64,000 nucleotides of DNA from Primulina eburnea. Lineage: Eukaryota > Streptophyta > Magnoliopsida > Lamiales > Gesneriaceae. This document shows, piece by piece, positions 18,469 to 55,260 of the stretch. The translations under genes were made by a program, and so were the position numbers. Numbering within the stretch: the stretch's first letter is position 1; every line of letters begins with the position of its first letter. Below the pieces are notes generated by a model. It was not told the DNA's origin. It saw nothing but the letters and a program-made list of their open reading frames with translations, and ran no database searches. The stretch lies in assembly GCF_022965805.1 (NCBI RefSeq), contig NC_133108.1, positions 20,489,545-20,553,544 on the forward strand. Direction: 5' to 3'.

Positions 18469-19864
18469 TGATAGGACTCGTTTTTACGTGTTTTTAGTGT
18501 TGGTTTTGAGTCGCATTCATGTATCATATTAGTTTGTTTAGTTTAATTTTGCATCTTTTTAGCATTATTTAGCATTTGACTGATCTCGTGTATTTTGTGG
18601 TGATTTTGTAGGAATTGAACCCAAAAGTGGGAGAAACTTTGGCATAATATCAAAGAGGATTCGCTTTTGACCGCCCCAGCGAGCATTTTGGTCTGGACAA
18701 GGAGTTTATGCGCTAGTGCCTCGCTAGGGCGGTCAAAAGTGACCGCCCCAGCGAAACCAGGGACATGCTCAAGAAGTTTATTCGAGGACCTCTCGCTAGG
18801 GCGGTCAAAATATACCGCCCTAGCGAGAAGCAAGATTGAGAAAGATTTGTTCCCAAATTTTGAGGGACTCTATCCTACACCTAAACATAACACACGAGAT
18901 CAGCAGCCGTTTTTCAGACTTTATCAGACTTTTCATCATTTTTCTTGGAGAGTAGGCTAGGAGCAAAGGAGATTTCGAAGACTTCGAGATTTCCACGCGT
19001 CGTGGCTGTTACCCGTCGTCATCTTTAGTATTTTCATTATTCAGTATTTGATTTCTTACATTGATTGTTGGTTTTTATCATGAATTTCAGTAGCTAAACT
19101 CTAAATTTGTTGGGATTTGAGGGGATCCTATTCCGTACTCGGTGTTTGATATTATTTCTCGACGTGTTTATTAGTGATTTGTTTATGCTATTGTTATTTC
19201 TTGCTTCAAACGAAGACTAGCTAACTTCTTTTGATTATTTCATGTTGTTAATGATTTCGATAGAATAATTAACAATACGATCAAAAAGTATAAACCACGG
19301 ATTTGCGATTTTAGTAGATATATGGAATTGGGTACGTGTCGATAGTGATAGTTCACCCGGATGAAAGCTAGTGGATTCCATAGAATGTAATGCAATCTTG
19401 AACTGTTAAATACTTGAGGACACTTGAGTACTGCATGTTTAGGATTAGTATTAATCTTGCTCGACAGAGTATATTAATTAGTCTAGGGAATTCCGTCGAA
19501 TGCACGAGTAAAAGTCGAGTGTAATTATTTAAACACGAGTGGTAGGTGAACTGATAATTCCCAACAAACTCATTTCTCATTTGATTTAATCCAAATTAAT
19601 CATTGCGTTCTTGAACACGTTTTCTTTGCATTTTAATTATTTTAATTGTTTAATTTACATTAGTTTAATCATCAACTCAATTTATCGTTGCTAAAGAAAT
19701 TTTACTTGAAAATAAAAATAGTGTAACGCAGTCCTTGTGGATCGATACTCGTATTCACTTACGTTTATTATAACTTGACTATCGTGCACTTGCGATATTT
19801 AAATCGAGCTTTCTTTTATAAAATAAATTTTGGGACTATTCACCGTGCAAGTTTTGCTCGATCA
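18469..19864 (+). repeat. Element C 5' LTR
   Basis: Starts TGATAGGACTCG and ends TTGCTCGATCA, 1396 bp. It carries the GC-rich palindrome array at 18663-18827. No obvious TATA box follows the array. Confidence 0.93.
18663..18827 (+). repeat. Family-C palindrome array in 5' LTR
   Basis: Two full units plus one half unit. The best unit is 18792-18827, with perfect 14-base arms CTCGCTAGGGCGGT and ACCGCCCTAGCGAG around an 8-base loop. The first unit (about 18663-18685) has lost most of its left arm. Confidence 0.85.
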
Positions 19865-19870
19865 AGTTTT

Positions 19871-19888
19871 TGGCGCCGTTGCCGAGGA
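19871..19888 (+). promoter_or_regulatory. Primer binding site, tRNA-Asp type (element C)
   Basis: TGGCGCCGTTGCCGAGGA lies 6 bases after the LTR and matches the 3' end of plant tRNA-Asp with one mismatch, the usual Athila primer site. Confidence 0.88.
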
Positions 19889-19990
19889 CTGTTGATTCAC
19901 AATTTTTTATTTTTCATTTAAATTCTTTAGTATTATTTATTTTATTGTTATTTGATACTCTCATTGTGTTGCAGATTTTTCTTGTGGTGC

Positions 19991-20066
19991 ATGCGAAGAT
20001 CACTCGAGTTTAAGCTTGAGCCTTTTGACCCCGAGATTGAACGCACAGCTAGACGTCGACTACAGC
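19991..20066 (+). pseudogene. Element C gag, N-terminal fragment
   Basis: ATG at 19991 opens MRRSLEFKLEPFDPEIERTA, the same start motif as the intact Gag of element B (MRRSQNLDLL, DPEIERTARR). The frame is cut after 25 codons by insertion of element B at TSD ACAGC and resumes at 41284. Confidence 0.85.
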
Positions 20067-20250
20067 TGATAAGTGCAATTTATTGTACTTTTATTACTTG
20101 TTTTTAACTTGGAATTTTGTGATTCTTGAGCAGGTTTTATTTGATATGTTGTTGTTTTTGTTATTGTAGTTTGGAAGCTTAGAAACGAGAGTTTGGAATG
20201 ATAAAGTGATGAATTAGAAGGTGCAAGGGACAAAGATACACGAAGCACTA

Positions 20251-20473
20251 CTGCACCCGCGCCACACCAAGCGCCGCGGCCGCACTACCTGCCGAGAAGA
20301 CAGCGCCCCGCGCTGCTTACATGAGCGCCCCCGCGCCAACTGCCGAGGCATGACCGCACCCGCGGTCATGCAAGCGCCGCACCCGCGCTGTCAACTCTGC
20401 AGCAAGAGATTTTTATGCGAAAGGACACCGCACCCGCAGTCCTTATACTGCTGCACCCGCGGTCATGCACAAA
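20251..20473 (+). repeat. Family-B palindrome array in 5' LTR
   Basis: About nine units built on CCGCACCCGCGGT or AGCGCACCCGCGCT. The clearest, at 20348-20371, has 10-base arms GCATGACCGC and GCGGTCATGC around ACCC. One unit here has lost a C (GCGCCCCGCGCT) compared with the 3' LTR. Confidence 0.88.
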
Positions 20474-20558
20474 CACCATTCCGGAAATTAAGAAACTTTG
20501 TGGACTTTGAACAAAAGAATGGGAAAATGGTGTGCTACGTGATGTATCTTGTCTAGAG

Positions 20559-20566
20559 TATAAAAG
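20559..20566 (+). promoter_or_regulatory. TATA box of element B 5' LTR
   Basis: TATAAAAG lies about 90 bases downstream of the palindrome array, placing the array in the U3 promoter region. It is repeated at 40331-40338 in the 3' LTR. Confidence 0.6.
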
Positions 20567-21517
20567 GGTCTCTTTATTATCATCTAGGGTATGGAGAGAA
20601 GCTAGGAAAAGGGTGGAGGCTACAAAGAAGAAGATTGAAGATCAAGAAGATCATCTCCAACAAGTTCTTGCACATCTTTGGACAAAAACTTCATACACTC
20701 CAAAACTCTTGTTCTAAGTTCTTTCTTTCTTTATTTTTACTTTTATTTTGATATGTCTTGTTTAAGATTTATGTGTTGTTGTTTTATTTTCATTATTATG
20801 AACTAAATCTTAATTCTAGAGGTATGATGGAACAAAACTAGAAACCATGTGTTGAGATTCATGATTTATGCTATATAAGTTGTCTTTATTGTTTATTTGT
20901 GTTTTTTCAATCTTAATGCTTTCATTTTATTGGCCATATCTTGAATGATTTGTATGTTATAAATTATCACTTGAAAAAGGAAATTTATAATCAAGAAAGG
21001 GAAAAATACATCGATGGTATTGATATAGTTCGAGAGGACATATTTTGCTATTGAAGCTATAAAAAGAATTTAGTGCTTGTTGTTGTATTATTTAATTATT
21101 GATTGTCGACGGAGACGTTGCAATCTTTTGTTAGATAATTAGTATCTACTTAGCACTCGAGAGAGGGAGTAGATAATTATAGAATTCTTGGTTAATGAAT
21201 AAGAAGGACAATTATAATATAGCTACACACAATAGCACATGGTGGATAGTTGAGTGAAGTCGGACCTCTAGATCTTTTATTCCATTGTTAAACTCTGTTT
21301 GGTATTAAAATTAAATTTATTTTCAATTCAGTTATTGGTATGAACAAATCTGTTATTTGATTATTCTAAATAAAATCGAGACTATTCTAATTACAAGCAT
21401 TAGTATAAATTTAGAAATTACATTCCTCGTGGGATCGATACTTGTACTTAAATTACATTTTATTATAGCTTGACGCCGTGCGCTTGCGAGCATTAAAGAA
21501 AACACGCTACAAGTTTT

Positions 21518-21535
21518 TGGCGCCGTTGCCGGGGA
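21518..21535 (+). promoter_or_regulatory. Primer binding site, tRNA-Asp type (element B)
   Basis: TGGCGCCGTTGCCGGGGA, an exact match to the 3' end of plant tRNA-Asp, 6 bases after the LTR. Confidence 0.9.
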
Positions 21536-24181: not shown

Positions 24182-25020
24182 GAGGAATTAGCCCTACTGT
24201 TTGTATGCATAAAATTTTGATGCAGGAGTCATATTCACCTTATGTTGATCATCAGAGAATGCTTAATCCTGCAATGAAAGAAGTTGTGAGGGCTGAGGTG
24301 TTAAAATTGTTAAATGCTGGTGTTATTTATGCTATATCTGATAGCTCATGGGTTTCACAAGTACAAGTAGTGCCTAAGAAGGGAGGAATAACTGTAGTGA
24401 AAAATGAGAACAATGATTTGATTTCAACTCGCCCAGTGACTGGTTGGCGAGTATGCATAGACTACAGGAAATTGAATGATGCTACTAGGAAAGATCATTT
24501 CCCACTTCCATTTATTGACCAGATGCTTGATAGAGTTGGTGGTTATCATTATTATTGTTTTCTAGATGGTTATTCAGGTTACAATCAGATTGTCATAGCA
24601 CCGGAGGATCAGGAGAAGACTACCTTCACTTGCACTTACGGTACATTTGCTTTCAGGAGAATGCCATTTGGACTATGCAATGCACCTGCTACTTTTCAGA
24701 GGTGTATGATGGCCATATTTTCTGACATGGTTGAGGAAATAATGGAGGTTTTTATGGATGACATTTCTGTATTTGGTACATCTTTTGATCATTGTTTGCA
24801 AAATTTAATGCTTGTTTTGCAGAGATGTCAGGATAAGAATCTAGTTCTGAATTGGGAAAAATGTCACTTCATGGTTCCAGAAGGTATTGTGCTTGGCCAC
24901 AAAATTTCAGCTAAAGGAATAGAAGTTGACAGGGCCAAAGTTGTGGCAATTGAAAATCTTCCACCGCCGAAAAATGTGAAAGGAATCAGAAGCTTCTTGG
25001 GACATGCTGGGTTTTATCGT
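24182..25020 (+). pseudogene. Element B reverse transcriptase, N-terminal part
   Basis: The polyprotein continues in a shifted frame with VCMHKILMQE, SPYVDHQRMLNP, VTGWRVCIDYRKLNDATRKD and FAFRRMPFGLCNAPATFQRC. The catalytic FMDD is at 24751-24762 and is intact. The domain runs to LGHAGFYR and is then cut at 25020 by element E (TSD ATCGT). The remainder is at 34071 onward. The earlier frameshift and this insertion together mean no full Pol can be made. Confidence 0.9.
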
Positions 25021-25176
25021 TGTTACGCCTTAAACGCATACAAATCTCGAGGATGAGATTAATGTTTTTAATGCTGTAACATATACCAAAGTTTTTGTTT
25101 TGATGATACCAAAACTTGGATTAAAAATGTACTAATGTTTTATATTGAGGCATGCAGGAAATTAAGAACAGGTTAC

Positions 25177-25652
25177 GTTCGGAAGATCCGACATTCGGTT
25201 CGGACGGTCCGAAATTGTGCAATTCAGAAGCAAAATAGAAGCTGTTCGGAAGCTGCGAGGAGAGCGTTCGGACGTTCCGAAGACGTGATCGGACGTTCCG
25301 AACAAAAGCAATCAAATCACTTCAATGCGGAGACAAATTGATATGACTGATTGATCGAGTAAGATTTCGGACGCTACGAAGGACATTTCGGACGCTACGA
25401 AGTGTTGAAGATTTCAAATCTCCGGAAACGCGGGAATGTTCGGACGGTACGAACTTGAGTTCGGACCTTCCGAAGCTGGTCATACACTGTCTGAAAGAAC
25501 CGTTCGGAAGAAACGAAGCTGGATCGGTCCCTCCGAAGCATATGTTCGGACCCTACGAACTCAAGAACGGACGATCCGAAGTCATCCCAAAATTACGGAA
25601 ATTGATTTCAATCACATCGGACGTTCCGAAGCATAAACAGAAGATCCGAACC
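25177..25652 (+). repeat. Family-E palindrome array in 5' LTR
   Basis: About fourteen copies of TTCGGACNNTCCGAA or near variants. Examples: GTTCGGACGTTCCGAA at 25266, ATCGGACGTTCCGAAC at 25288, GTTCGGACCTTCCGAAG at 25459, ATCGGACGTTCCGAAG at 25616. The motif is a near-perfect palindrome with a variable centre and irregular spacing (22-60 bases). It ends about 18 bases before the TATA box. Confidence 0.9.
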
Positions 25653-25669
25653 TTGGCGTCCAAGACTAG

Positions 25670-25677
25670 TATAAATA
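25670..25677 (+). promoter_or_regulatory. TATA box of element E LTR
   Basis: TATAAATA followed by GGC, directly after the palindrome array. The same core TATAAATAGGC recurs upstream of the 3' ORF (31257). Confidence 0.75.
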
Positions 25678-26173
25678 GGCCTTTGAGGATGCATTTTCAA
25701 TAATCCACTCCACTCTCTCTTGTCTCTTACAAAGCTTTCTACTATCTCTTGTGTGCGTTGATTAAAAGAGTTGTAATATCAAAAGAGTTGTAGAAAAAGA
25801 GTGAAAGTAATACTCTCGAGTGGGTTGTAAAGTTCGTGGCTATCCTTGGAGCCCTCAAGGCCAAGTAGACGCATCGAGGCGTGGTTGTAAAAGCTAGCTT
25901 GGAGCTCCTAAAGCCAAGTCGATATAGTGATACCTCGATCCTCATCGAGAAGGGGAGACGTAGACGATTCTTCGTCGAACTTCCATAAACATCTCTATCC
26001 CTCTTTACTTTACGCATTTACTTTACTACGCACTTATTTTACGCACTTACTTTACGCATTCATTTTATTTGTGATTGTCCCTCAAGTCTTCCGCTTGCAA
26101 TTTTTGCAAACTCGTTCTAAAAACGCTAAAGGGCCTAAAAGAACCTATTCACCCCCCCTTTAGGTTCTTCAAG

Positions 26174-26189
26174 TGGTATCAGAGCAAGG
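26174..26189 (+). promoter_or_regulatory. Primer binding site, tRNA-Met type (element E)
   Basis: TGGTATCAGAGCAAGG two bases after the LTR. The gag ATG follows only 18 bases later, an unusually short leader. Confidence 0.9.
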
Positions 26190-26207
26190 TTTTTCAAAAT
26201 CTTTTAA

Positions 26208-27758
26208 ATGGCCAATCTAGCAAGCGAGTATGCCCAAGGACAATCCACAAATCGTCCCCCTCTTTTCAATGGTACTAATTACGGATATTGGAAAAATAGA
26301 ATATCTCTATACATCCAATCCGTCGATTACGACCTTTGGAAAATAACGGTGAAAGGTCCCTATATCCCCATGAAAACGGTGGATAATAAGGAAATTCCTA
26401 AGGGAATGGATGACTTCACCAAGGACGATATGAAACTTATCTCTCAAAATGCTAAAGCTATGAATATTCTTCATTTTTCTCTAGATATGAATGAATACAA
26501 CCGAATCTCGGCTTGTACCTCCGCCAAAGAGATTTGGGACAAATTGGAGATTTGCCACGAGGGAACCAATCAAGTCAAAGAAACGAAGATAGACCTTCTC
26601 CAACTCAAGTACGAGACCTTTGAGATGGAACCCAAGGAGGATATCGACACCATGTTCCGGCGGCTCACCCAAATCATCAATGAGCTTGCCCAACTTGGTG
26701 AGAACTACCCAACTAAACAAGTGTGGAGGAGAGCCCTTCGAGCATTACCGGCGGAATGGGATGCAAAGCGCACGGCTATCATTGAATCCAACAAGGGAGA
26801 TGCTGCATCCTACGACCTTGATCAACTTCATGGGACCCTAAAGACCCATGAACTTGAAGTATCTACCCGGAAGGAGACAAAGAAAGATGACGACAAAGTA
26901 AAGGCGAAAGGGATCGCCTTGACCAGTCAACTTGAAGATAGCGACGATGAAGAAATGGCACTCCTCACTAGAAAGTTCAAAAGATTCATGCGGAGTTCCA
27001 ACTTCAACAAGAAAGACAAAAAGTTTGAGAAGGAAGTGACCTGCTACAACTGTCAACATAAGGGTCACTATGCAAACGAGTGTCCCTCCAAGAAGAAGGC
27101 CGGCAAAGACAAGAAAAAGGCCCTTCTAGCCACGTGGAGCGACAGCGACAACGAAGAGGAGTCTACCCTATGCTTCATGGCGAAGGAAGATCATCTGACC
27201 GACTCGGATGACGACGAGGTACCCTCTTACGATGAATTACTCTCCGCGTACACTAGTATGTACAATAAGGCTAAGTCACTTAGAAATGAGAATAAGCAAC
27301 TTAAAACTGAACTAGAAGCTAGGATGCATGACAACACTAAGCTCAAGACAAACCTAAGAGACTTAGAGAAAGCCTTCAACAAGTTCAATGTGAGTAGCGG
27401 TAAACTAGAAAACCTCTTGAGCATGCAAAGGTGTAACTTCGACAAAGGAGGTCTAGGATATGAAAAGAAATCAGTCAACTTCGCTAGTCTTATCGCAAAG
27501 GCAAAACCAAGAACACCACCAACATGCACTTACTGTTGTAAGATAGGCCACATAAGACCTAAATGCAAGAAACTTAGACACCAACACAACAAGAATAGTT
27601 ATTGGAAATGGATCCCCAAATCCCCAACTACTACTAACCTCAAAGGACCCAAAGAAACGGGTACCAACTATCAAACTGTATCTCAACCTTGTAGGGACAA
27701 AGGGGAGACAAGTCATCGAGCACTTGGTATCTTGACAGTGGATGCTCTCGACACATGA
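26208..27758 (+). CDS. Gag of Sirevirus-type element E
   Basis: 516 codons from the ATG at 26208. The N-terminal region has [20 protein letters not shown], the usual Copia Gag opening. A UBN2-type Gag core follows with [15 protein letters not shown] and [15 protein letters not shown] (about residues 100-220). A CCHC knuckle [14 protein letters not shown] is at about residue 279 and a second, [14 protein letters not shown], at about residue 439. Two knuckles are unusual outside Sireviruses. Between them lie an acidic stretch and a probable coiled coil (about 345-410). It forms the particle and binds the RNA. The frame ends at 27758, overlapping the first bases of the pol ORF. The protease catalytic D-S-G lies just upstream of 27755 in the pol frame, so Gag and Pol are separated by a frameshift. 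Confidence 0.92.
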
Positions 27759-30745
27759 CGGGAGAAAAGAAGCTGCTACAATCCATTCGACCAAAAGAAA
27801 AGGGATCGGTGACCTTCGGAGACAACAGCAAAGGGATCATAGAAGGCATCGGCTCAATAGGTATATCTAACTCTACTATTATTGATGATGTACTTCTTGT
27901 GAAAGGGCTTAAACATAACCTCCTAAGCATTAGTCAATTGTGCGATAGGGGTTATGAAGTCAAATTCACACCACACGATTGCACTGTATCACTCACAACT
28001 GACAAAACCATTAGTTTCAAAGGTTATAGAAGTGAAAATGTTTACAAGGTCGATTTAAAGATTTCATCTTTTTCAAAAATAAAAAGCCTTGTAACATTAA
28101 ATGTTGATGACAACATTCTTTGGCATAGACGACTTGGTCATGTTGGGATGAGCACCATAGAAAAACTTTTAAAACTTGACCTAGTTTCCGGAATGCCAAA
28201 GCTGAATTTAAAATTAGATTCTTTTTGTGATGCTTGTCAACTTGGTAAACACACAAAGGAATCTTTCAAAAATAAAAATTTTGTATCCACTTCTATGCCC
28301 CTTGAATTACTTCACCTAGATTTATGTGGTCCCTCGAGGACAACTAGTCTAGGAGGAAAATCTTATGCTTTTGTCATTGTAGATGATTTTTCACGTTTTA
28401 CTTGGACATTGTTTTTAGCCCACAAAAATGATGCCTTTGATCATTTCAAAATTTTTGTCAAAAAGGTTGAAAATGAGAAAAATCTTTTGATCAAACAAAT
28501 CCGTAGTGACCACGGAACGGAATTTCAAAATGAAAATTTTTCAATTTTTTGTCAAAGCAAAGGCATTGGTCACAACTTTTCTTGTCCTAGAACTCCTCAA
28601 CAAAACGGTGTCGTTGAGAGGAAGAATAGGACCCTAGTAGAGATTGCAAGGACCATGCTATGTGAGCATTCTCTACCAAAATATTTTTGGGCTGAAGCAA
28701 TGAGTTCTGCTTGTTACATCATCAATCGCGTATCAATAAGGCCAATTCTCAAGAAAACTCCATACGAACTATGGAGAGGGAGAAAGCCTAACATTTCTTA
28801 CTTCCGCGCTTTTGGATCAAAATGCTTCATCCACAACAATGGTAAGGACAACCTGGGTAAGTTCGATGCTAAATCGGACAAAGGTATCTTTCTTGGTTAC
28901 TCTACTTCTAGCAAAGCATATAGAGTCTTTAATAAACGTACTTTACTAGTTGAAGAATCTATTCATGTCATATTTGATGAAACTAACCCTTGCTTGCCTA
29001 GAACTGTTGTTTCTGATGATGATGATATAGATATCCTTGGCGAAAAGTTGGAGTCCACAAGCCTAGATGATGTTCCTAAAGATCAAGAGGACGCACCTCT
29101 TCCGAAGGAGTGGACTACACACAAGGATCATCCCATGGACCTCATCATTGGTAGCCCATCGAAGGGAGTATCTACTCGTTCTTCTAATATGTGCAATTAT
29201 CTTGCTTTTCTTTCTCACATAGAGCCTAAGAACATAGAAGAAGCTTTACTTGATGATTCTTGGATTATTGCTATGCAAGATGAACTAAATGAATTTAGAA
29301 GGAATAAAGTTTGGAATCTTGTACCTAGACCCACTGATAGACCTGTCATAGGAACTAAATGGGTATTTAGGAACAAGTTAGATGAGCATGGTACAATCAC
29401 TAGAAATAAAGCTAGGCTAGTAGCTAAAGGATATAGTCAAGAAGAGGGAATTGATTATGATGAGACTTATGCCCCTGTTGCTAGACTAGAATCCATTCGC
29501 ATGCTACTTGCTTTTGCTTGCTCTAGAGACTTTAAATTGTTTCAAATGGATGTTAAAAGTGCTTTTCTTAATGGTGATTTGAAAGAAGAAGTGTATGTTG
29601 AGCAACCTGTTGGTTTTGAAGATGTGCACTTATCTGATTATGTGTATAAACTTGATAAGGCTTTGTATGGTTTGAAACAAGCTCCTAGAGCTTGGTATGA
29701 GAAATTATCTACCTTTTTGCTGTCTAATGGTTTTTGTAGAGGTAAAGTTGATATTACCTTATTTACCTTGACTAAAAATAATGATTTGCTGATAGTACAA
29801 ATATATGCAGATGATATTATTTTTGGTGCTACTAATGAACACTTGTGTAGAGATTTTTCTAAGCTTATGCAGGATCACTTTGAGATGAGCATGATGGGCG
29901 AACTCAACTACTTCCTTGGTCTCCAAATCAAGCAATGCAAGGATGGTTTCTTTGTCAACCAAGGGAAGTACATCAAGGAGATGCTAAAAAAGTTTGGGAT
30001 GGAGTCTTCCAAAGCCTCATCCACACCTATGAGCACGACAGTCAGACTCGACAAAGATGAGGGAGGTAAACCTGTTGACCAAAAGTTATTTCGTAGCATG
30101 ATTGGCTCCCTACTCTATGCGACTGCTAGTAGACCTGACATTATGTTTAGTGTTTGCTTGTGTGCACGATTTCAATCATGTCCAAAGGAATCACACTTAT
30201 TCGCCTTAAAACGCATTTTCAAATATCTTTCAAATACTCCAAATCTCGGATTATGGTATTCTAAGAACTCATTTTTCGATTTAAAAGCTTACTGTGATGC
30301 CGACTTTGGAGGATATAAGGTGGATAGAAAGAGCACTAGTGGAACTTGTTTCTTTTTGGGAAATTGCTTGGTGTCATGGTTTTCTAAAAAGCAAAACTGT
30401 GTTGCACTTTCAACGACCGAGGCCGAGTATATGGCTGCCGGTAGTTGTTGTGCACAAATTCTTTGGATGAAGTATCAATTACTCGACTATGGTGTTACTT
30501 TTTCAAAAATTCCAATATTTTGTGATAATACAAGCACCATATGTCTAACAAAGAATCCAGTTCAACATTCTCGTACTAAACATATTGACATTCGACATCA
30601 TTTCATTCGTGATCACATTGAGCAAAATGATGTTGAACTTCACTATGTTGACACCAAGAATCAAATTGCTGATATTTTTACAAAACCACTAGATGAATCT
30701 ACTTTTACTCGTTTGCGTGGTGAACTTGGCATGATTGAGTTGTAA
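27755..30745 (+). CDS. Pol of Sirevirus-type element E (protease, integrase, RT, RNase H)
   Basis: 996 codons open from 27755. The true domain start is slightly upstream, since the protease active site (L-D-S-G-C-S) is at about 27731-27748 in this frame. Order by residue: rest of protease 1-100; GAG-pre-integrase HHCC finger about 118-185 ([16 protein letters not shown]); integrase core about 185-310 with D in HLDLCGP, D in RSDHGTEF and E in [11 protein letters not shown] about 518-745 with [25 protein letters not shown] and catalytic YADD (about 684-687); RNase H about 840-990 with [16 protein letters not shown] and FCDNTS, ending near ADIFTKPLD. All catalytic residues are present and the frame is open to 30745. 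The integrase-before-RT order defines it as Copia. Confidence 0.95.
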
Positions 30746-30779
30746 ACACTAGTCGAATACTCTCGTACATATTTGTTAA

Positions 30780-30791
30780 ATTAAGGGGGAG
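30780..30791 (+). promoter_or_regulatory. PPT-like copy after pol (element E)
   Basis: ATTAAGGGGGAG-type tract 35 bases after the pol stop. It matches the PPT copies near the 3' LTR. Confidence 0.65.
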
Positions 30792-30915
30792 TATTATTAA
30801 TGTGAGCATTATAATGTCGGATAATACAAATTAATTGTATTTATCCATAATTATGGCTCAACATTCATTTATGTGCTAAATATTTTAAATTTTAGGTGTT
30901 CCTCATCTTGGCTAC

Positions 30916-31283
30916 TTCGGAATCACCGCTCCTATTCGGATGCTCCGTTTCACCTCGGATCCACCGAATGTGTTCGGATCGTCCGAACCTGACCATAGGT
31001 TCCAGAACCTCCGATTCCCTCTTCGGACCATCCGAACAAACATCGGATCGTCCGAACTCCTTCCGATGTCATTTAATGTTCGCGCCTTCCCATGCCTGAT
31101 TGTCAGACTTCGGACCCTCCGTTTACGCTTCGTAGCCTCTGTTCTATGATCGGATTGTCCGATTGTGAATCGGATCGTCCGAACGGACTGCCAGATAACC
31201 GTTCCGTTCAAATTCCGGACCTTCCGAACTCATGTTCGGACCGTCCGAACATGGCCTATAAATAGGCGTTCGGATCCTCTGAT
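30916..31283 (+). repeat. Family-E palindrome array upstream of 3' ORF
   Basis: About eleven copies of the same TTCGGAYNNTCCGAA motif as in the LTR, for example GTTCGGATCGTCCGAAC at 30972, CTTCGGACCATCCGAAC at 31021, ATCGGATCGTCCGAAC at 31042 and GTTCGGACCGTCCGAAC at 31234. It ends at a TATA box and the 3' ORF begins about 80 bases further on. Confidence 0.9.
31257..31267 (+). promoter_or_regulatory. Candidate internal promoter TATA before 3' ORF (element E)
   Basis: TATAAATAGGC, identical over 11 bases to the LTR TATA region at 25670, again just after the palindrome array, 83 bases upstream of the 3' ORF ATG (31340). Confidence 0.65.
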
Positions 31284-31339
31284 TTATTTACTCATTCACT
31301 CCTTCTTTCTTTCCCCACACAAAACACTCACTACTCACT

Positions 31340-32611
31340 ATGCCTCCGCGCCGTAACGTAGCTGGCCGAAATGTTCGCCCTCGTCACGGTGCCTTTCATC
31401 ATGATCTTACCCAACCACCCAACCCTCGTCCTATCCCACCTGAATTCGAAACCCGTAACATTCTGCCTGGTCGTACCCTTCACACCGATTATCTTCGTGC
31501 AAATTTCTTTACGTTGATTACTCTTATTGAGTCTCAACGTTGGGGAAACTTCTTTCTACCTTCCGTACCCGATCTCATCTACCCCTCTCTCATACATCAG
31601 TTCTATGCGAACTTTTCCCTAGTTCTTGGTGGTGATGACACTCGTGTTGTTACCATTGTTCAGGGTCGGTTCATTTCTTTTTCTACCGCCGACCTCTCCA
31701 CTTGGTTCGATCTTCCTCGAGACGGACCGAGTGAGTTCTTTTCTCAGTCTTGGACTGAGAATGACCCTACTTTTGATCGAGTCACTGCCTTGACCACCAT
31801 CTTCGGTCGTCCGCCTACTCCTGCCGATGACCGTCCTCATGCGAAGGACCTTCCTCCTCAGCTTCAGCTTGTTTTGAAGCTCATCACTTCTTCTATTGTT
31901 CCTCGCAGTGGAGACCTCTCCACTTGCAAATATCTCGATCTGTACATTCTCTATTATTTAGTCTCCCAGCGTCCTTTTAACCTTCCCCGTTTTCTAATGT
32001 ACGCCATGGAGTACGCGGCTTCTTCTACTCGCGTCTCTTTTCCATTTGGCCGGTTCATTAACCGGATTCTAGCCCATCTGGGCATTGACTTTACAGATGA
32101 AGAATCCTTATCTATTTCTCCTCGCGAGACTATCGACCATGATACTGTTGTTAAGATGGGACTCTCTTGGAATCCCGTCTTATCCTCTTGGGTCATCGAC
32201 AAGGATCGCATCTTTGCGTCCTATCGTCCGACCGAACACTTTCATGTTCCCTTCGGTCTCCTTCCTCCTCACGTTCAGACGAGAGGATTTCCCGCTGGTC
32301 CCCCTACTACGGGTACCACTCCTACCCCTTCGTTTGATATTCCCTCTACATCCCATCAGCGTGTTCCCGACCCTATTAGCACTCCTTTGATGACCATGGA
32401 TGACCTTCCTCATGGCTTCACTCCGCCTGCTCCCTCTGGACCCTACGATCGGATTTTCGAGTATCTCGAGCGATTGGAGACTCGTTTCGACACTCGTTTT
32501 TCTCTTTTAGAGTCTACCTTAGAGCGCCATCATACCGAGACTTCTTCGCGTCTGGATTCCATCGAGGCTGAGATGAGGAGACATAGAGAGTCGCGGGATG
32601 CGGATTCTTAG
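31340..32611 (+). CDS. 3' ORF of element E ('env-like' by position; plant transposon protein family)
   Basis: 423 aa from the ATG at 31340. The N-terminal domain contains LIHQFYANFSLVLGGDDTRV near residue 85, then VQGRFISFSTADLSTWFDLP and a second block around SFPFGRFINRILAHLGIDF. These line up in order with FYAN, VRGK/VRGH and LC-A-R-V/G blocks of the 3' ORFs of elements B and C. The middle is Pro/Thr-rich. The C-terminus (about 360-420) is a heptad-like coiled coil (FEYLERLETRFDTRFSLLES). I see no signal peptide or membrane helix, so an envelope role is not supported. By family it resembles the 'putative plant transposon protein' domain. Molecular function is unknown. Confidence 0.75.
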   Translation: MPPRRNVAGRNVRPRHGAFHHDLTQPPNPRPIPPEFETRNILPGRTLHTDYLRANFFTLITLIESQRWGNFFLPSVPDLIYPSLIHQFYANFSLVLGGDDTRVVTIVQGRFISFSTADLSTWFDLPRDGPSEFFSQSWTENDPTFDRVTALTTIFGRPPTPADDRPHAKDLPPQLQLVLKLITSSIVPRSGDLSTCKYLDLYILYYLVSQRPFNLPRFLMYAMEYAASSTRVSFPFGRFINRILAHLGIDFTDEESLSISPRETIDHDTVVKMGLSWNPVLSSWVIDKDRIFASYRPTEHFHVPFGLLPPHVQTRGFPAGPPTTGTTPTPSFDIPSTSHQRVPDPISTPLMTMDDLPHGFTPPAPSGPYDRIFEYLERLETRFDTRFSLLESTLERHHTETSSRLDSIEAEMRRHRESRDADS

Positions 32612-32734
32612 CTTATGTTTTTGTTATTTTTTATTTTATCTTTATGCATCATTGTATAAAAGAATTGCATTTATTAGTGGATATTTTACCTGTTTATTTG
32701 TCTCTCTTTATGCTTATGTCTTTTTGCTTATCAC

Positions 32735-32919
32735 AAAAAGGGGGAGAATTTATTTGGTTAAAATTGCTGTTAATTGGTTATTAAATAAATTCGCCTTAAT
32801 TCAACCTCTTAGACTTGTTATTTGATTAAGGGGGAGTTATTTAATAACCATTTCGATTATGTTGATTATTGTTATCTCAATTTTTAACCAAGTTTTGTGA
32901 TCATCAAAAAGGGGGAGAT
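32735..32919 (+). promoter_or_regulatory. Repeated polypurine tracts of element E
   Basis: Three copies: AAAAAGGGGGAG at 32735, TTAAGGGGGAG at 32826, and AAAAAGGGGGAGAT at 32906-32919 immediately before the 3' LTR. Repeated PPTs are a known Sirevirus feature. Confidence 0.85.
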
Positions 32920-41283: not shown

Positions 41284-42486
41284 ACAGCAGAAAAGAGCGA
41301 AGGAAAAAATGGAAGACGAGCAACACAGAGAGGAGCCATGGCGTATACCGATGTTGGATTATGCACAGCCGTCTCTTGATGGAGCACGTCCCAGCATCGT
41401 AAGACCAGTCATCCGAGTTAATCAGTTTGAGATCAAGCCAGCTATCATTCAGATGATTCAGAACACTGTCCAATTTGGGGGAAGTGCACTTGACGACCCT
41501 AATTCTCATATAGCTGACTTTCTTGAAATTTGTGATACTTTTAAGTTTAATGGCGTGTCTGATGATGTTGTTCGTTTGCGTTTATTTCCATTTTCACTGA
41601 GAGATAAAGCTAAGTCGTGGTTAAACTGTCTGCCTGTAGGGTCTATTACTACATGGGAGGATATGGCAAAGGCATTCCTAATCAAGTACTTTCCTCCGTC
41701 AAAGACTATGAAGCTTAGAGCCGACATTACTAATTTTGCCCAATATGAGCAAGAGTCACTTTACGAGGCATGGGAGCGCTACAAGGACTTGTTGAGGAGA
41801 TGTCCACACCATGAGCTGCCTCTTGGGTTAGTTGTTCAAACTTTCTACTACGGTCTGCTTACTCCTAACCGTACTATGATAGATGCTGCTGCCTGTGGTA
41901 ACTTACTGAGAAAGACGGCGGAGGAAGGATATGAGTTATTGGAGGAGATGGCTGCTAGTAGCTATCATCCTCAGTCTGATAGGCAGAGACGAGGTGCTGG
42001 AGTTAATCAAGTTAATGATTTTTCGGCGGTTTCAGCACAGTTAGAGGCTTTGAATAGAAAGATTGATGGGATGAGCATGAGTGGGTCGGCTATGCGTCTG
42101 CAAGAAATTTTCTGTGTTAAGTGTGGGGGTGAGCATGATGTGCAGGATTGCCAAGATGGCAATCCATTCTATGTGCCTGAAAGAGCACCGGTAAAACAAG
42201 TGGGATTCCAGAACCGTCCTAGAAATGACCCTTACTCGAACACATATAATCCGGGATGGAGGAATCACCCAAACTTTTCATGGGGAGGTCAAAACAACCA
42301 AAATCGCCAACAAAGAGGTCCACCATATGGGATGCACCAAGGATTCAAGCCAGAACCGTCTCGGGAGGAGAAGTCCAATTTAGAGCAAATGATGACTAAA
42401 TTTATTTCTGCAATAGAGACGAGATTTCAGAACCAAGATGCATATGTAAAGGGGTTAAAGAATCAAATTGGACAATTGGCTAAGTT
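41284..42486 (+). pseudogene. Element C gag, main part
   Basis: Continues the gag begun at 19991. The Athila Gag core has RLRLFPFSLRDKAKSWLNCL and SLYEAWERYKDLLRRCPHHE. A zinc-knuckle variant reads CVKCGGEHDVQDC near 42114-42152. The Asn/Pro-rich stretch SNTYNPGWRNHPNFSWGG follows, then a coiled-coil-like segment ending QIGQLAK. The frame is cut at 42486 by the hAT-type MITE and continues at 43244. The reading frame upstream of 41284 (from 41276) is accidental, arising from the end of LTR B. Confidence 0.9.
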
Positions 42487-43235
42487 TAGGGGTGATCACG
42501 GTGCGGTTTTGCGGTTTTTTTTAAAAAAATTCAAACCGAATTGCCATATGCGGTCGGTTAGTATTTTGAAAAATTAATCGCGGTTTTACGTAAAAAATCA
42601 GCCTTGCGGTTTTGAGCGGTTTCAAGCGGTTGCGGTCGGTTTTACGGTTTTTTTAATGAAAATATTAGAATATATATTCTAATTTATTTGAAAACAACAA
42701 CAATATATTGTTTTCAAATATAAAATATAGTTCAAAGCATATAAAGATCAAAATAGATTAAACAATAATCAAGATTCAAAACTAAGTTAATAATTTAACA
42801 ACACAACACATTCATAACAAAAATGACATTTACACTATTTTATCATTTTTTTACTTTGAGACTACAAACAAAATATTGTAGCAAGAAAAATAAATACTTT
42901 AATAAAAGACTAATATGAAGAATAATTAAGAAAAAAATAATTTTATTTGTAAGAATAAAATTTTTAAAGAGAGTTAGGATATAATGAATGATGAATTCTT
43001 TATTTGAATATTTTTTTTACAAATTATTATAATTCTAGGCCAAATATTATGGCAAGCGGTTTAGGCGGTGCGGTTTGGTGCGGTTCTTGGCAAAAAAAAT
43101 AACCGAACCGCGTATGCGGTGCGGTTTATGATTAATATTTTTAATCGCGGTTTTTATAAAATATTATGAAAAACGGTGCGGTGCAATTCGGTTCGGACGG
43201 TTCGGGCGGTTAATAAAAAATTTTGATCACCCCTA
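42487..43235. mobile_element. hAT-type MITE with subterminal GCGGT repeats
   Basis: 749 bp with terminal inverted repeats TAGGGGTGATCA and TGATCACCCCTA and an exact 8-bp TSD GCTAAGTT (42479-42486 and 43236-43243). 8-bp TSDs and T-A-G-G-G-type ends are typical of hAT elements. There is no transposase ORF, so it is non-autonomous. Both ends hold dense GCGGTT or AACCGC motifs (about 42510-42655 and 43050-43215), the layout expected of subterminal transposase binding sites. The middle is very AT-rich. Confidence 0.93.
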
Positions 43236-44510: not shown

Positions 44511-44515
44511 GTTGC

Positions 44516-47947: not shown

Positions 47948-50690
47948 GTTGCAGACATAAAAGGGATAAGTCCTTCGATCTGCATGCACAAAATTCTGAT
48001 GGAAGATAAATACTCACTTCTAGCACAACCACAAAGGAGACTCAATCCAAAGATGCAAGAGGTAGTAAAAGCTGAAACCATTAAACTTCTGGATGCAGGT
48101 ATTATCTATCCTATCTCTGATAGTGCGTGGGTAAGCCCTGTACAATGTGTGCCTTAAAAGGGTGGGATTACTGTTATTACTAATGAAAAAAATGAGTTGA
48201 TTCCCACTAGAACTGTTACGGGTTGGCGTGTGTGCATAGATTATAGGAAATTGAATGATGCAACCCGTAAAGATCACTTTCCCTTGCCATTTATCGATCA
48301 AATGATTGAACGATTAGCAGGTCATGAATTTTATTGCTTTTTAGATGGATATTCGGGATACAATCAAATCACAATTGCACTTGAGGACCAAGAGAAAACT
48401 ACTTTCACTTGCCCTTATGGTACTTTTGCGTTTAGGCGTATGCCCTTTGGTTTATGCAATGCACCTGCAACATTTCAAAGATGCATGACCGCTATCTTTC
48501 ATGACATGACTGAAAATTTCCTTGAAATCTTTAAGGATGACTTCTCTATTTTTGGCTCCTCATTTAATGAATGTTTAGAGAATTTGAACTTGGTGTTAGT
48601 TAGATGTGAGGAGAGCAATTTGGTGTTGAATTGGGAGAAGTGTCATTTTACGGTTCAAGAGGGGATTGTGTTAGGACACAAGGTATCGGAGAATGGAATT
48701 GAGGTTGACAAAACCAAGGTGGAAGTAATCAAAAACTTACCCCCACCTTCATCAATAAAAGGAGTTAGAAGTTTCCTAGGGCATGCTGGTTTTTATAGGC
48801 ATTTCATTAAAGATTTTTTCCAAAATTGCTAAACCTTTATCCTCTTTGTTGATGAAAGATGTTGAATTTAATTTTGATTCTACTTGTCTGCATGCATTCG
48901 AGATACTCAAGGAGAGCTTGGTGACAGCACCTGTTCTGACTGTCCCTGATTGGGAGTTACCATTTGAGGTGATGTGCGATGCTAGTGATACAGCTGTTGG
49001 TGCGGTGCTGGGTCAAAGGAAGAACAAGGTATTTCATACCATCTACTATGCAAGTAAGACTTTAAATGATGCTCAATTGAATTACGCTACTACTGAAAAG
49101 GAATTACTTGCTATAGTATTTGCTTTCGACAAATTTCACGCATACCTTGTTCTGTCTAAAGTAACTGTGTATACAGATCATTCTGCCCTCAAATACTTGT
49201 TTGCTAAGAAAGATGCGAAACCTAGGTTAATTAGGTGGATTTTATTATTGCAAGAATTTGATCTCGAGATTCGAGATAAAAAGGGTGTGGAAAATGTAGT
49301 TGCTGATCATCTGTCTAGGCTTGAGCATGTTAGAATTAAGGGCAGTGACGATGATATAGATGACTGGTTTCCGGATGAACAATTGCTTGAGATGAAACTT
49401 TGTCCATGGTATGCAAATTTCGCTAACTTTCTTGTCACAGGCACACCTCCACCAAACCTATCGTTTCACCAACGAAAGAAATTCTTTTCTGACGTGAAAT
49501 ACTATTTTTGGGAGGAACCGTTTTTGTTTAAAATTTGTGCATATTCCATGATAAGACGGTGTGTTGCGGAGGAAGAGTTTGATCGAATTCTCAACCATTG
49601 CCATGACCGTGAGGTAGGTGGTCATTTCGGACCAATAAGGACGGCATCCAAGGTACTTGAAAGTGGCTTTTATTGGCCAACTCTCTTTAAAGATGCTCGT
49701 TCTTATGTGCTACATTGTGATAAATGCCAGCGGATAGGTAACATCTCTAACCGTCACGAAATGCCTTAAAATAATATCATTGAGTGTGAGGTTTTTGATG
49801 TGTGGGGGATAGACTTTATGGGACCGTTTCCTAGTTCTTTCACGAAAAAATATATTTTGGTGGCAGTGGAGTATGTATCTAAATGGGTGGAGGCAGAGGC
49901 TTGTGCCACTAATGATGCACAAGTAGTGTTAAATTTTTTGAAGAAACATATTTTTAATCGATTTGGTGCACCACGTGCAATCATAAGTGATGGTGGCACC
50001 CATTTTTGCAACAAAATTTTTGATAAACTGTTGGGCAAATATGGTGTCACCCACAAGGTTTCCACTCCATACCATCCCCAAACTAGTGGACAAGTTGAAG
50101 TATCCAATCGAGAAATTAAGAGTATTTTAGAGAAGACGGTTAATGTGAATAGAAAGGACTGGTCCATTCGGTTAGATGATGCTTTGTGGGCGTATTGTAC
50201 TGCTTTTAAAACTCCTATAGGCACTACACCATATAGGTTGCTTTTTGGTAAAGCATGTCATCTACCAGTAGAATTAGAGCATAAAGCATATTGGGCGACC
50301 AAAGCACTAAACTTTGATTTTGCTCTTGCAGGTGAAAAACGATTGCTGCAATTGAATCAGTTAGATGAGTTTCGAGGAAAAACTTATGATCTTGCGCTAT
50401 CTTACAAGGAACGCACCAAACGAGCCCATGATAAACACATCTTAAGAAGTGAATTCAAAGTGGGTGACGCGGTGTTGTTATACAATTCTCGCTTACGACT
50501 CTTTCCGAGCAAGCTAAAGTCAAGGTGGTCAGGACCATTCACTATAGCCAAGGTGTTCCCATCGGGTGCAGTGGTGTTACATGATGGCAAGGAGGGGACA
50601 TTTACTGTGAACGCTCAAATAGTGAAGCACTATATCGGTGGCACAATTGAGCCACAAATTGGAGTCACTCGGCTCCATGACAGTCATTGA
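47948..50690 (+). pseudogene. Element C RT, RNase H and integrase (multiple breaks)
   Basis: Resumes after D3 with VADIKGISPSICMHKILMED. Breaks: TAA at 48155-48157; a one-base shift in the T-run at 48814-48819; TAA at 49767-49769. RT motifs VTGWRVCIDYRKLNDATRKD and FRRMPFGLCNAPATFQRC are present. The catalytic loop reads F-K-D-D (near 48531-48542) instead of F/Y-M-D-D. RNase [19 protein letters not shown] and [14 protein letters not shown]. Integrase: HHCC finger ([18 protein letters not shown]), core D in [15 protein letters not shown] in [12 protein letters not shown] in [13 protein letters not shown]-terminal block [17 protein letters not shown], ending at 50690. Non-functional as it stands. 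Confidence 0.92.
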
Positions 50691-51467
50691 GGACATGGGT
50701 GAAAAGTCGAGCTCTAGACTATAAATTGAGAACTACTTCTACTCCTTATATTGATTTTGATTATTATTTTTAGTTATTAATCGCATCATTTGCATTTAGG
50801 TAGTTGCATGGCATTCCATTCAATTTTTTTTCCCGACCACTTCTCGCCCGGGCGGTCAAAACTGACCGCCCCAGCAGGTACTCGTTTTTTTCAAAAAAAA
50901 AAGAAGTCTTCTGGGGTAACTTCTCGCTAGGGCGGGAAAAATATACCGCCATAGCGAGTCGCGCAGATTAAAAAACCTTTTTTTTCCCCGCAAACTTCTC
51001 GCTCGGGCGGATATTGTTGACCGCCCTAGCGAGTTGCACAGATTATCAAAAAAAAATTTTCCGAAAACTTCTCGCTCGGGCGGTCAATTTGGACCGCCCT
51101 AGCGAGTCGCACAAATTTTTAAATATTTTGTCGGCGAGAACCCCTCGCTAGGGCGGACACAATTGACCGCCCTAGCGAGTCGCGCAGATTTAAAAACTTT
51201 TCCCCTTCTCTTTTCTTCTCCACTTCGAACCCTACTCCTCCTCTCCAATTTTCGGCGCCCCCCCTTCCTTCTATTGTGCTCAAGACGTTTTATTTGGTGA
51301 TTTTTCAGGGCAAAGACCCAATCTTGGTCCATACACTCCACGAGGAAGCATTTAGGCTACAAGATTTTCTTCTCCGGTCATCTTCCACAGATTCCGGTGA
51401 GCATCTGCGGCGACCTTTAACAATTCTCCGGCGGTTGGATACTTGTGCTCCCCTCCAATTTCCCACA
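50691..51467 (+). other. Element C spacer between pol and 3' ORF
   Basis: Contains the five-unit palindrome array (50843-51180), then a possible TATA-like ATTTAAAAAC near 51187-51196, a pyrimidine-rich stretch (51200-51275) and the start of the 3' ORF reading frame. Confidence 0.7.
50843..51180 (+). repeat. Family-C palindrome array upstream of 3' ORF
   Basis: Five hairpin units start near 50843, 50924, 50998, 51071 and 51144, spaced 81, 74, 73 and 73 bases. Each is CTCGCTNGGGCGG...CCGCCCTAGCGAG, as in the C LTR. Units are separated by AT-rich spacers that share GCAGATT-like text. Confidence 0.9.
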
Positions 51468-52616
51468 ATGGCACCCAAAAGATCTAAGGTAACTCGCGGT
51501 GCTTCTAGCTCTCGGTCCACTCCATCTATGTTTGTGAATGATAATGCTAGGGAGAGATATGAAAATGCTAGACTACATAGGAAACCAATCCCTGAGCGAG
51601 GATTTAGCTCGTCTATTATCAATCATTTTGCGGAGTTCCACGTAGCAGGAAGAGGGTGGACTGCCTTTGTGGCACAACCGAACGCAGCAATAGTTCCGGT
51701 TGTGCATGAATTTTATGCCAATGCTCCGGAGGGGAATGAGCATAAGGCATTTGTGAGGGGACATCTAGTCCCGTATGATTTCCGTACGATCAATGACATG
51801 TTGGGTTTAACGTCGGTGGATGATTCGGTGTTTCAGGTGTGGGTGCTTAACCCGGATTATGATTTGATCATTCGCACACTCTGTTATCCGGGCACCACGT
51901 GGAAACAACCGGGGACGTATACGGTTTTTCTTGAAAATTTTTTGAAAGTGGACGCGGCATTGTGGTATGCATTCCTGTCTAAGAGATTGATGCCGGTCGA
52001 TCATACGAGTGATGTGCAGCGCGAGCGGGTGGTTGTTCTTTATGCCATCTATACTGGGATGGTGATTGATGTGGGCAGGCTCATTTTCGGACAGCTTAAC
52101 ATGTGTATAAACAGCAGAAATTTGACTTTTTACTTTCCGACGATAGTGACTGAGCTGTGTGCCCGAGCGGGGGTGATATTTGCAGATGATGATGAGTGGT
52201 TACCGCCGATGAGAGCCATTGATGAGGCTCTTTATCGATCCAAGAGGGAGAAAAGACAGTCTGAGCTGCCCGACGAGGTATTTTTCGATTATGGGGGAGC
52301 AGCTCAACCACCTTCGGCCTTAGGACATGCACCACCACCTCCGCAGCCACGCCGCCGTGCCATGCGAGATCGCATCGACGAATTGGGCGCTTGGGCCACT
52401 TATCAGACTGAGTACCAGGCCGTTAATCAGGCTCACATTCAGAACATCGAATACTTGGTGCAGGGGATCTCAACTCATTTGGGCATCGACACTTCCGGAC
52501 GGCCACCTACACCCGCATACCCGCCACCCTTCCAGTTTCAGTACCATTATCCTATGCCCCCAGCAGCTGAAGAGGGAGTTCCACCGCCTGAGAATGAAGA
52601 GGAGGACAATTTCTGA
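51468..52616 (+). CDS. 3' ORF of Athila-type element C (plant transposon protein family)
   Basis: 382 aa from the ATG at 51468 (MAPKRSKVTRGASSSRSTPS); the frame is open further upstream from 51276 but resemblance to the B protein starts here. Blocks: IPERGFSSSIINHF, VVHEFYANAPEGNEHKAF near residue 80, VRGHLVPYDFRTINDMLG, ERVVVLYAIYTGMVIDVGRL, FPTIVTELCARAGVIF. A Pro-rich segment (about 285-300) and a helical stretch (RDRIDELGAWATYQTEYQ) follow, then a Pro-rich acidic tail. The same order and spacing occur in the B protein. Unlike the rest of C, this ORF has no stop or frameshift, although C is the oldest element of the nest. No signal peptide or membrane helix. Function unknown. Confidence 0.8.
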   Translation: MAPKRSKVTRGASSSRSTPSMFVNDNARERYENARLHRKPIPERGFSSSIINHFAEFHVAGRGWTAFVAQPNAAIVPVVHEFYANAPEGNEHKAFVRGHLVPYDFRTINDMLGLTSVDDSVFQVWVLNPDYDLIIRTLCYPGTTWKQPGTYTVFLENFLKVDAALWYAFLSKRLMPVDHTSDVQRERVVVLYAIYTGMVIDVGRLIFGQLNMCINSRNLTFYFPTIVTELCARAGVIFADDDEWLPPMRAIDEALYRSKREKRQSELPDEVFFDYGGAAQPPSALGHAPPPPQPRRRAMRDRIDELGAWATYQTEYQAVNQAHIQNIEYLVQGISTHLGIDTSGRPPTPAYPPPFQFQYHYPMPPAAEEGVPPPENEEEDNF

Positions 52617-53849
52617 TCAGGGGAGTTTAATGTTTCCCTTTTCTTTTTATTTTTCATATTCTGTCTTTGCATTTACATTCATGATTTTTTATGTTTTTAG
52701 TGTTTGTTTCGTTTTGTGCAATGAGGGCATTTGCACAACTCTAGTATGAGGGGGTGGGTAGATTGTTATGTTTGCCTAGTTATTCGTTGCATTTCTTTTG
52801 TTTGGTGTCGTTTATGGTGAGAAGACATAGTTTATGAGCCAATGATGAGGTTGGATTGATAGTATACAAAACTATTGATTGGGTCACTTCATGAATGGTA
52901 CTTTTGATTGTTAAAGCATGAATTTTGGCACTAATTTTGAACTTTTTGAGCACACATGTGTGGGGACTAGAATTTTGTAGGAATAATGGTGAAATTTGAA
53001 GGTTTTGTGTGGTTAACTTGAAAGGCATCATTTATGAGTTGATTTAGCATGTAAACCCGTGAAAATAAGTCACTAATTGGGGACCTTGAATGAGAACATT
53101 TGATTTGCCTTGAACTTTACATATATCCCCTGTTCAATGCACGAAATTAAAATATCGTACTCCTAACCAGCTGTAATCCAAAGTTATATATTCTTAGCCT
53201 AGGGAGTACATGTGTGAAAATTGTGCATCTTGAAAAAAAAAAAAAAAAAAGAGGAAACAAAATGGTGGAGATGTAAGGTGAGGGGGAGCCGAAATAAAAG
53301 GAATGAAATTCTATTCCTGGGCTAAAAGTTGGAGATGTAAGGAGACGAGGAAAGTCAAACAAAAAGTCTTGACGATTTCACAATGAAAATGATCGGTGTA
53401 CTCCCGACTGTTAGCCACTTGAGCTTATTTTCCTTCTTTTCGACACCCTTATCTGCACTTAAAATTGAATAAAGTTCAATTTATGGTTAGTGATAAATGG
53501 ACACGGGGGTGCATGCTAGTGAGACTTGTATTGAAATGTTAATTGAGTGACTCACATGATTTGATGATTGATCTATTTGGAATACGAATGACTAGACCCA
53601 TCATGACACACACACACGTTCCAATTAGTGTCGAGATTTATGTGTAGATGAGAGTGAGTATTCGTTTGCGATTTGACTTGATTATGATTTGTATGTGGGA
53701 AAGTTCGCTGAGGCATGAGCATAACAGTTGTTAACTCACCATGGACATTTACTTATGTTGGTTATTTCTTGTTTGAGTATTTTGTGGTTGTTGTGTTAGT
53801 TTAGAATCTCGTGCTTTAACCTATTTTGCTCGAGGGCGAGCAAAAGGTT
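52617..53849 (+). other. Element C long 3' untranslated region
   Basis: AT-rich and without coding signal. The first PPT copy is at 52743-52755. An A-run lies near 53234-53251, followed by purine-rich sequence. Confidence 0.75.
52743..52755 (+). promoter_or_regulatory. Internal PPT copy, element C
   Basis: AGTATGAGGGGGT, identical over 13 bases to the PPT at 53850-53862, 127 bases after the 3' ORF. Confidence 0.8.
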
Positions 53850-53862
53850 AGTATGAGGGGGT
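53850..53862 (+). promoter_or_regulatory. Polypurine tract, element C
   Basis: AGTATGAGGGGGT immediately before the TG of the 3' LTR. Confidence 0.82.
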
Positions 53863-55260
53863 TGATAGGACTCGTTTTTACGTGTTTTTAGTGTTGGTTT
53901 TGAGTCGCATTCATGCATCATATTAGTTTGTTTAGTTTAATTTTGCATCTTTTTAGCATTATTTAGCATTTGACTGATCTCGTGTATTTTGTGGTGATTT
54001 TGTAGGAATTGAACCAAAAAGTGGGAGAAACTTTGGCATAATATCGAAGAGGATTCGCTAGGGCGGTCACCCAGCGAGCATTTTGGTCTGGCCAAGGAGT
54101 TTATGCGCTAGTGCCTCGCTAGGGCGGTCAAAAGTGACCGCCCCAGCGAAACCAGGGACATGCTCAAGAAGTTTATTCGAGGACCTCTCGCTAGGGCGGT
54201 CAAAATATACCGCCCTAGCGAGAAGCGAGATTGAGAAAGATTTGTTTCCAAATTTTGAGGGACTCTATCCTACACCTAAACCTAACACACGAGATCAGCA
54301 GCCGTTTTTCAGACTTTATCAGACTTTTCATCATTTTGCTTGGAGAGGAGGCTAGGAGCAAAGGAGATTTCGAAGACTTCGAGATTTCCACGCGTCGTGG
54401 CCGTTACCCGTCGTCATCTTTAGTATTTTCATTATTCAGTATTTGATTTCTTACATTGATTGTTGGTTTTTATCATGAATTTCAGTAGCTAAACTCTAAA
54501 TTTATTGGGATTTGAGGGGATCCTACCCCGTACTCGGTGTTTGATATTATTTTTTAGACGTGTTTATTAGTGATTTGTTTATGCTATTGTTATTTCTTAC
54601 TTCAATCGAAGACTAGCTAACTTCTTTTGATTATTTCATGTTGTTAATGATTTCGATAGAATAATTAACAATACGATCAAATAGTATAAACCACGGATTT
54701 GCAATTTTAGTAGATATACGGAATTGGGTACGTGTCGATAGTGATAGTTCACCCGGATGAAAGCTAGTGGATTCCATAGAATGTAATGCAATCTTGAACT
54801 GTTAAATACTTGAGGACACTTGAGTACTGCATGTTTAGGATTAGTATTAATCTTGCTCGACAGAGTATATTAATTAGTCTAGGGAATTCCGTCGAATGCA
54901 CGAGTAAAAGTCGAGTGTAATTATTTAAACACGAGTGGTAGGTGAACTGATAATTCCCAACAAATTCATTTCTCATTTGATTTAATCCAAATTAATCATT
55001 GCGTTCTTGGACACGTTTTATTTGCATTTTAATTATTTTAATTGTTTAATTTACATTAGTTTAATCATCAACTCAATTTATCGTTGCTAAAGAAATTTTA
55101 CTTGAAAATAAAAATAGTGTAACGCAGTCCTTGTGGATCGATACTCGTATTCACTTACGTTTATTATAACTTGACTATCGTGCACTTGCGATATTTAAAT
55201 CGAGCTTTCTTTTATAAAATAAATTTTGGGACTATTCACCGTGCCAGTTTTGCTCGATCA
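53863..55260 (+). repeat. Element C 3' LTR
   Basis: 1398 bp, ends TTGCTCGATCA followed by TSD ATTAG. Palindrome array at about 54056-54224. The first unit keeps its left arm (CGCTAGGGCGGTCA) and has lost most of its right arm, the reverse of the 5' LTR. Confidence 0.93.
54056..54224 (+). repeat. Family-C palindrome array in 3' LTR
   Basis: Two full units and one truncated first unit, matching 18663-18827 except for the different deletion in unit 1. Confidence 0.85.

Follow-up and report, generated by a model that had tools for sequence, protein, structure and literature searches.

The role of the sense 3' open reading frame (ORF) of plant Athila and Sirevirus retrotransposons is unsettled; most discussion has treated it as envelope-like (PMC2829016, PMC7264820). 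Repeated-motif (RM) boxes were described in the LTRs and upstream of ENV of nine Sirevirus elements, and the accessible part of that paper gives them as absent from the linker of four Sireviruses without ENV (Bousios et al. 2010, PMC2829016). The Sirevirus half of the layout examined here, in which one motif is arrayed both in the LTR and ahead of the 3' ORF, is already published there. The same text places the boxes in Copia Sireviruses, says that they are absent from classic Copia and, unlike the present report, mentions in its accessible part neither a binding protein nor Gypsy arrays nor the spacing of paired sites.

Short, family-specific motifs arrayed in an element's own non-coding DNA are also known from the VANDAL transposons and their VANC anti-silencing proteins, where an unrelated element can be affected as well (Hosaka 2017, PMC5735166). 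The elements described below likewise have short arrayed motifs, as putative targets of a protein of their own. By the accessible text of that work, they differ in that VANDALs are DNA transposons, in that VANC contains DUF1985 and DUF287, which were not found here, and in that the VANC21 motif YAGTATTAY lacks the CpG that is present in every core reported below; loss of methylation was demonstrated for VANC, whereas we infer it for the proteins considered here.

Sunflower Athila elements were reported to have an additional 3' ORF with similarity to Transposase_32/PF20167 and a predicted nuclear signal (PMC11728184), resembling the third ORF (ORF3) of the two Gypsy elements below. The available text of that paper presents no palindrome array, VANC comparison (both words are absent from its main text) or Copia counterpart. 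Retand TRP28 elements have an extra ORF, thought to be DNA-binding, and the region from pol to the 3' LTR holds tandem repeats that are specific to the family, but their ORF is antisense and carries PF04195, and the accessible text does not report that the repeats match the LTR (PMC11963269). A sunflower paper of 2026, after citing VANC, describes in its available part the encoding of such methylation-shaping proteins by Athila or Tork elements as still to be investigated. A literature search, with most subscription journals and preprints outside its reach, did not turn up any account of matching arrays in elements of the Athila type, of PF20167 behind arrays in both superfamilies, of a resemblance to VANC21 or of the pair spacing; the Athila-like half, the shared protein, the VANC21 resemblance and the site geometry thus appear here without an earlier report that we could find.

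Three nested elements and their arrays

The window, i.e. the whole 64-kb stretch of DNA that was analysed, contains three nested elements: C (18469-55261) encloses B (20067-41284), and E (25020-34071) sits inside B. Their LTRs, ORF3 genes and pol spans are on the forward strand; the RVT_1 match of B is given by position only. The LTRs of C (18469-19865 and 53863-55261) are 97.7% identical, those of B (20067-21512 and 39838-41284) 99.0% and those of E (25020-26172 and 32919-34071) 99.8%. A PBS-like TGGCGCC follows the 5' LTR of C at 19871 and that of B at 21518, and the PBS of E, TGGTATCAGAGC, lies at 26174. In both B and C, a Gypsy pol in the order reverse transcriptase (RT), RNase H, integrase precedes a 3' ORF, as in the Athila layout. 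The pol parts of C (RVT_1, RNase H, integrase) span 48197-50690; in B, RVT_1 matches at 24205-25056, and RNase H and integrase lie at 33974-35746 in an open frame that starts within the 3' LTR of E. We take TGGCGCC to be the Athila PBS, and it is for this PBS and the layout that B and C are named Athila-like. E is Sirevirus-like, with a Copia pol (RVT_2, integrase; 27755-30745) and several polypurine tracts AGGGGGAG (30784, 32739, 32829 and 32910) that are presumably the Sirevirus PPT. The pol domains bear out an earlier note on this DNA, which had read B and C as Gypsy and E as Copia. A tRNA scan of the window with the bacterial code gave no tRNA.

That note had placed six arrays in these elements, one in the LTR and one between pol and the 3' ORF of each; all were found where it placed them, and the 3' LTRs hold arrays as well. 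C has CGC-N4-GCG sites at 18671-18828 in the LTR and at 50843-51180 upstream of ORF3 (51468-52616). B has CGC-ACCC-GCG sites at 20252-20461 in the LTR, and its internal array (36196-36516) lies between pol and ORF3 (37057-38088). In E, TTCGGA-N3-TCCGAA sites occupy 25180-25648 of the LTR, and the internal array (30918-31281) lies upstream of ORF3 (31340-32611). Across the 64 kb, 35 of 36 CGC-N4-GCG dyads fall inside the LTRs or pol-to-3'ORF spacers of B and C (the exception is at 43109), and all 27 CGG-N5-CCG dyads inside the LTRs or spacer of E.

A blind search, in which any dyad with 3-base arms and a gap of 0-9 bases was ranked by z against 300 dinucleotide shuffles, returned CGC-N4-GCG as the top dyad in the C LTR (5 seen, 0.08 expected), the C spacer (9, 0.21) and the B spacer (8, 0.11), and CGG-N5-CCG in the E LTR (8, 0.15) and the E spacer (11, 0.17). 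The B LTR array, where CGC-N4-GCG (3, 0.06 expected) ties with CCG-N0-CGG (3, 0.04), is the weakest of the six by exact dyads. With that tie, the motif proved the same in both places of each element, as had been claimed. Neither core was among the four top dyads listed in eight other stretches (three between ORF3 and the 3' LTR, three coding, and two of an element A, one of these in its second LTR). A count of all perfect inverted repeats exceeded all 500 shuffles in the C spacer, E LTR and E spacer, and stayed within them in the two arrays of B and in the short one of the C LTR; it was too crude and was therefore replaced by the dyad-specific counts. With CGG-N5-CCG on top in LTR and spacer, and with boxes before the TATA motif in the LTR and before the 3' ORF, E agrees with the Sirevirus RM boxes, which in the accessible part of their description are likewise palindromic, family-specific and built on a CGG-CCG core (PMC2829016).

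Motifs unrelated between elements, as the earlier note had them, do not hold for B and C, whose common core emerged from the blind search. The site is CGC-ACCC-GCG in B and CGC-CCTA-GCG (or CCCA) in C, with the same dyad core and another centre and flanks, and the 14-base palindrome once read in C is really two CGC-N4-GCG sites in opposite orientation, 22 bp apart. The proposed fast change of the recognition sequence stands for the centre, the flanks and the pair orientation, which differ between B and C, and for the different core of E, but not for the B and C core, which is common to proteins about 30% identical. At the base adjoining the B core, the two sides of the dyad covary, which is what a two-fold binder would call for; the C flanks show no such covariation.

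In all three elements the sites are often paired about two helical turns apart, a feature absent from the earlier note. Paired sites in C face each other at 22 bp, and the pair-to-pair steps are 72-80 bp (72 bp in the LTR, 73-80 bp in the spacer). In B they have the same orientation and a spacing of 22-24 bp, alongside wider gaps of 29-31 and 49-54 bp; distances of 23-24 bp make up two of five in the LTR and four of nine in the spacer, and the pair-to-pair steps are about 74-77 bp, with 53-bp steps (23 + 30) too. Neighbouring E sites are 19-22 bp apart in 8 of 13 LTR and 7 of 12 spacer distances (15 of 25 together), many of those in the LTR at 20-22 bp. TATAAA follows the array in the B LTR (20559) and the E LTR (25670) and is found at 31257 in the E spacer, where one weaker site (31271) lies past it. 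A scan for TATA-like forms found just TTTTAAG and TTTAAA in the B and C spacers, and none of the scanned forms in the C LTR.

Element A, at 5311-15040, is a tandem arrangement of three LTRs with two internal regions, without PF20167; two ORFs that were scanned in it gave gag and no RT. Its LTR holds a fourth, different array, of opposed ACGGACC/GGTCCGT pairs 28 bp apart in a 66-74 bp rhythm. Further stretches rich in inverted repeats, outside these arrays, lie at 15101-16400 and 42301-42900.

ORF3 proteins and their co-occurrence with the arrays

The 3' ORFs of B, C and E are homologous, all three matching PF20167. ORF3 of C is 33% identical to that of B over 256 columns, and the B and C proteins are about 30% identical. 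The closest named relative of the B protein, with 80% identity, is from Primulina. For B and E, the two that were modelled, the best fold match of both models is the solved VANC21-DNA structure (9lnj), with a long C-terminal helix noted for E. As in the VANC system, the protein is encoded by the element itself, and its predicted fold may be VANC21-like. A plain Foldseek search of the models against the PDB gave nothing significant, a profile search of PDB sequences found nothing, and none of 34 PF20167 proteins matched DUF1985 or DUF287 at E values up to 10 within HMMER's filters. Searches of public viral contigs with B ORF3, E pol and B RT yielded no relatives.

B-type ORF3 is under purifying selection, as judged by dN/dS for this type alone, from pairs with dS of 0.05-0.6 among the 25 of 30 loci in which a script found a stop-free domain frame. 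The B ORF3 of the window (343 aa; region 37057-38214) ends earlier than its closest relative, which has 384 aa, and a weak profile match persists in the frame past its stop. ORF3 of E (31340-32611) has 99 scored copies at 98-100% identity (from 2411 candidates), 97 of them without an internal stop; these sequences give E the appearance of a large family of very recent origin.

The 30 best-scoring PF20167 loci of 3949 candidates (150 scored) form a single 80% identity cluster with B, and 28 of them have 4-13 CGC-N4-GCG sites in the upstream 1.3-1.8 kb. The earlier note's own objection, that most families might lack the second array, thus found no support among ORF3-bearing loci, nearly all of one family, with three protein families sampled. 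Two B-type loci, L042 and L043, have no upstream site. One locus, L052, had been a candidate for a motif switch, as its Athila-type ORF3 seemed to go with CGG dyads of the E type. It is not counted as one since it has its own CGC-N4-GCG array (four sites) and the E-like dyads form a separate stretch, probably an insertion. Its 3' LTR, the one B-type 3' LTR fetched, carries four sites in steps of 23, 51 and 23 bp.

Sixteen further stretches (L009-L024) were picked by the exact C 14-mer; arrays were therefore expected in them, and only their co-occurrence with ORF3 is informative. Exact 22-bp spacing accounts for 96 of their 178 neighbour distances below 200 bp, and a spacing of 50-51 bp for another 51. 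ORF3 is present in ten of the 16, split over more than one segment in L013, L017 and L022. These ten, and L056 from the PF20167 list, have 3-12 sites upstream of ORF3 and another 1-8 in the region of the 3' LTR, 1.3-2.0 kb downstream (the single downstream site of L020 is explained by the end of the stretch); L024 and L056 have one further site within ORF3. The six stretches without ORF3 are of several kinds. Just the 5' part of an element is visible in L011, and L014 is a C copy with ORF3 deleted and both internal and LTR arrays kept. L009, L012, L018 and L023 are short elements, LTR pairs with arrays in the LTRs only. L009 and L012 are C derivatives. The LTRs of L018 and L023 have no match to the window, and in both the second LTR extends to the end of the stretch. 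These two have a gag ORF, and directly ahead of TATA-like runs they carry C-type sites paired at 22-23 bp; each array includes a single exact 14-mer along with near variants of it. Their sequences make motif hitch-hiking possible.

A putative self-activation system and its rivals

The two-place layout shared by Gypsy and Copia elements, which was the central claim of the earlier note, is backed more strongly than that note could put it, because the 3' ORFs are homologous and the spacing of the paired sites is similar. To the observed arrays, the core shared within each family, the site geometry, the homologous ORFs, the selection on the B type and the fold predicted for B and E, we would add a mechanism that we hold to be rather probable: the PF20167 protein is a sequence-specific activator or anti-silencer that acts on the LTR array and on its own promoter, in a positive feedback like that of VANC. 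Encoded after pol, the protein would bind the paired dyads of its own family as a dimer or oligomer, on one face of the helix in both arrays, which would be its targets. On the LTR array it would counteract plant silencing, by activation or demethylation, so that the promoter there stays open or active, and on the second array it would do the same at a promoter of its own gene and thereby close the loop. Gypsy and Copia retrotransposons would in this way use the mode of action of VANC, the anti-silencing protein of the VANDALs.

The main rival, which we consider unlikely, is that host transcription factors bind the arrays as enhancers, a module duplicated for the LTR and for a separate ORF3 promoter, and that ORF3 has another job. 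It would suit the four short elements with LTR arrays and no ORF3, the internal array that L014 retains without ORF3, the similar 66-74 bp period of the element A pairs, the B and C core shared despite the low identity of the proteins and, in the accessible text, the LTR copies retained by the four Sireviruses without ENV (Bousios 2010, PMC2829016). Another reading of the short elements, however, makes them hitch-hikers that use a protein provided in trans. The paired C-type sites of L018 and L023 (found by the exact C 14-mer) fit dependence on a C-encoded factor, and a precedent is reported in the unrelated AT9TSD1, which is affected by VANC6 (Hosaka 2017, PMC5735166). Nor would host enhancers predict a VANC21-like fold in ORF3.

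It is very doubtful that the arrays function as RNA hairpins, be it in packaging, translation or as small-RNA precursors. By RNA folding against 100 shuffles, the C spacer (z -11.7) and the E spacer (z -6.1) fold strongly, and the B spacer better than all 100 shuffles (z -2.5), but the direct rather than opposed order of its pairs leaves the B array much weaker. As fold strength is not common to the arrays, a hairpin was rated low as their shared function; moreover, a hairpin has no need of the dyad spacing, which is the shared trait, and nearly all E sites lie upstream of the TATA motif, with the one at 31271 after it. We give hardly any credence to an envelope-like ORF3 behind an internal array that is a splice or promoter relic without a link to the LTR array, since, although plant sense 3' ORFs are called env-like in the accessible literature (PMC2829016, PMC7264820), the N-termini are basic, the highest 19-residue hydropathy is, in a crude test, 1.46 in B, 1.77 in C (residues 188-206, inside the PF20167 core) and 1.02 in E, and the best fold match of the models is a DNA-binding protein.

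Under the favoured reading, of an ORF3 protein that activates its own element, B, C and E may carry their own self-activation system. More tentatively, and with somewhat less confidence than doubt, we suggest that the 'envelope-like' 3' ORFs of Athila and Sirevirus could be one family of VANC-fold, sequence-specific anti-silencing proteins, kin by descent to VANC of the Mutator-like transposons. Two retrotransposon superfamilies and one group of DNA transposons would then run on the same self-activation machinery, and the family-specific CpG dyads would be addresses copied by non-autonomous or unrelated elements. A role in DNA binding and anti-silencing, with one named target motif per family, lends itself to direct testing. 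If true, it would connect two superfamilies of retrotransposons with VANC biology and would go some way to explaining how these large families remain active in genomes with heavy methylation.
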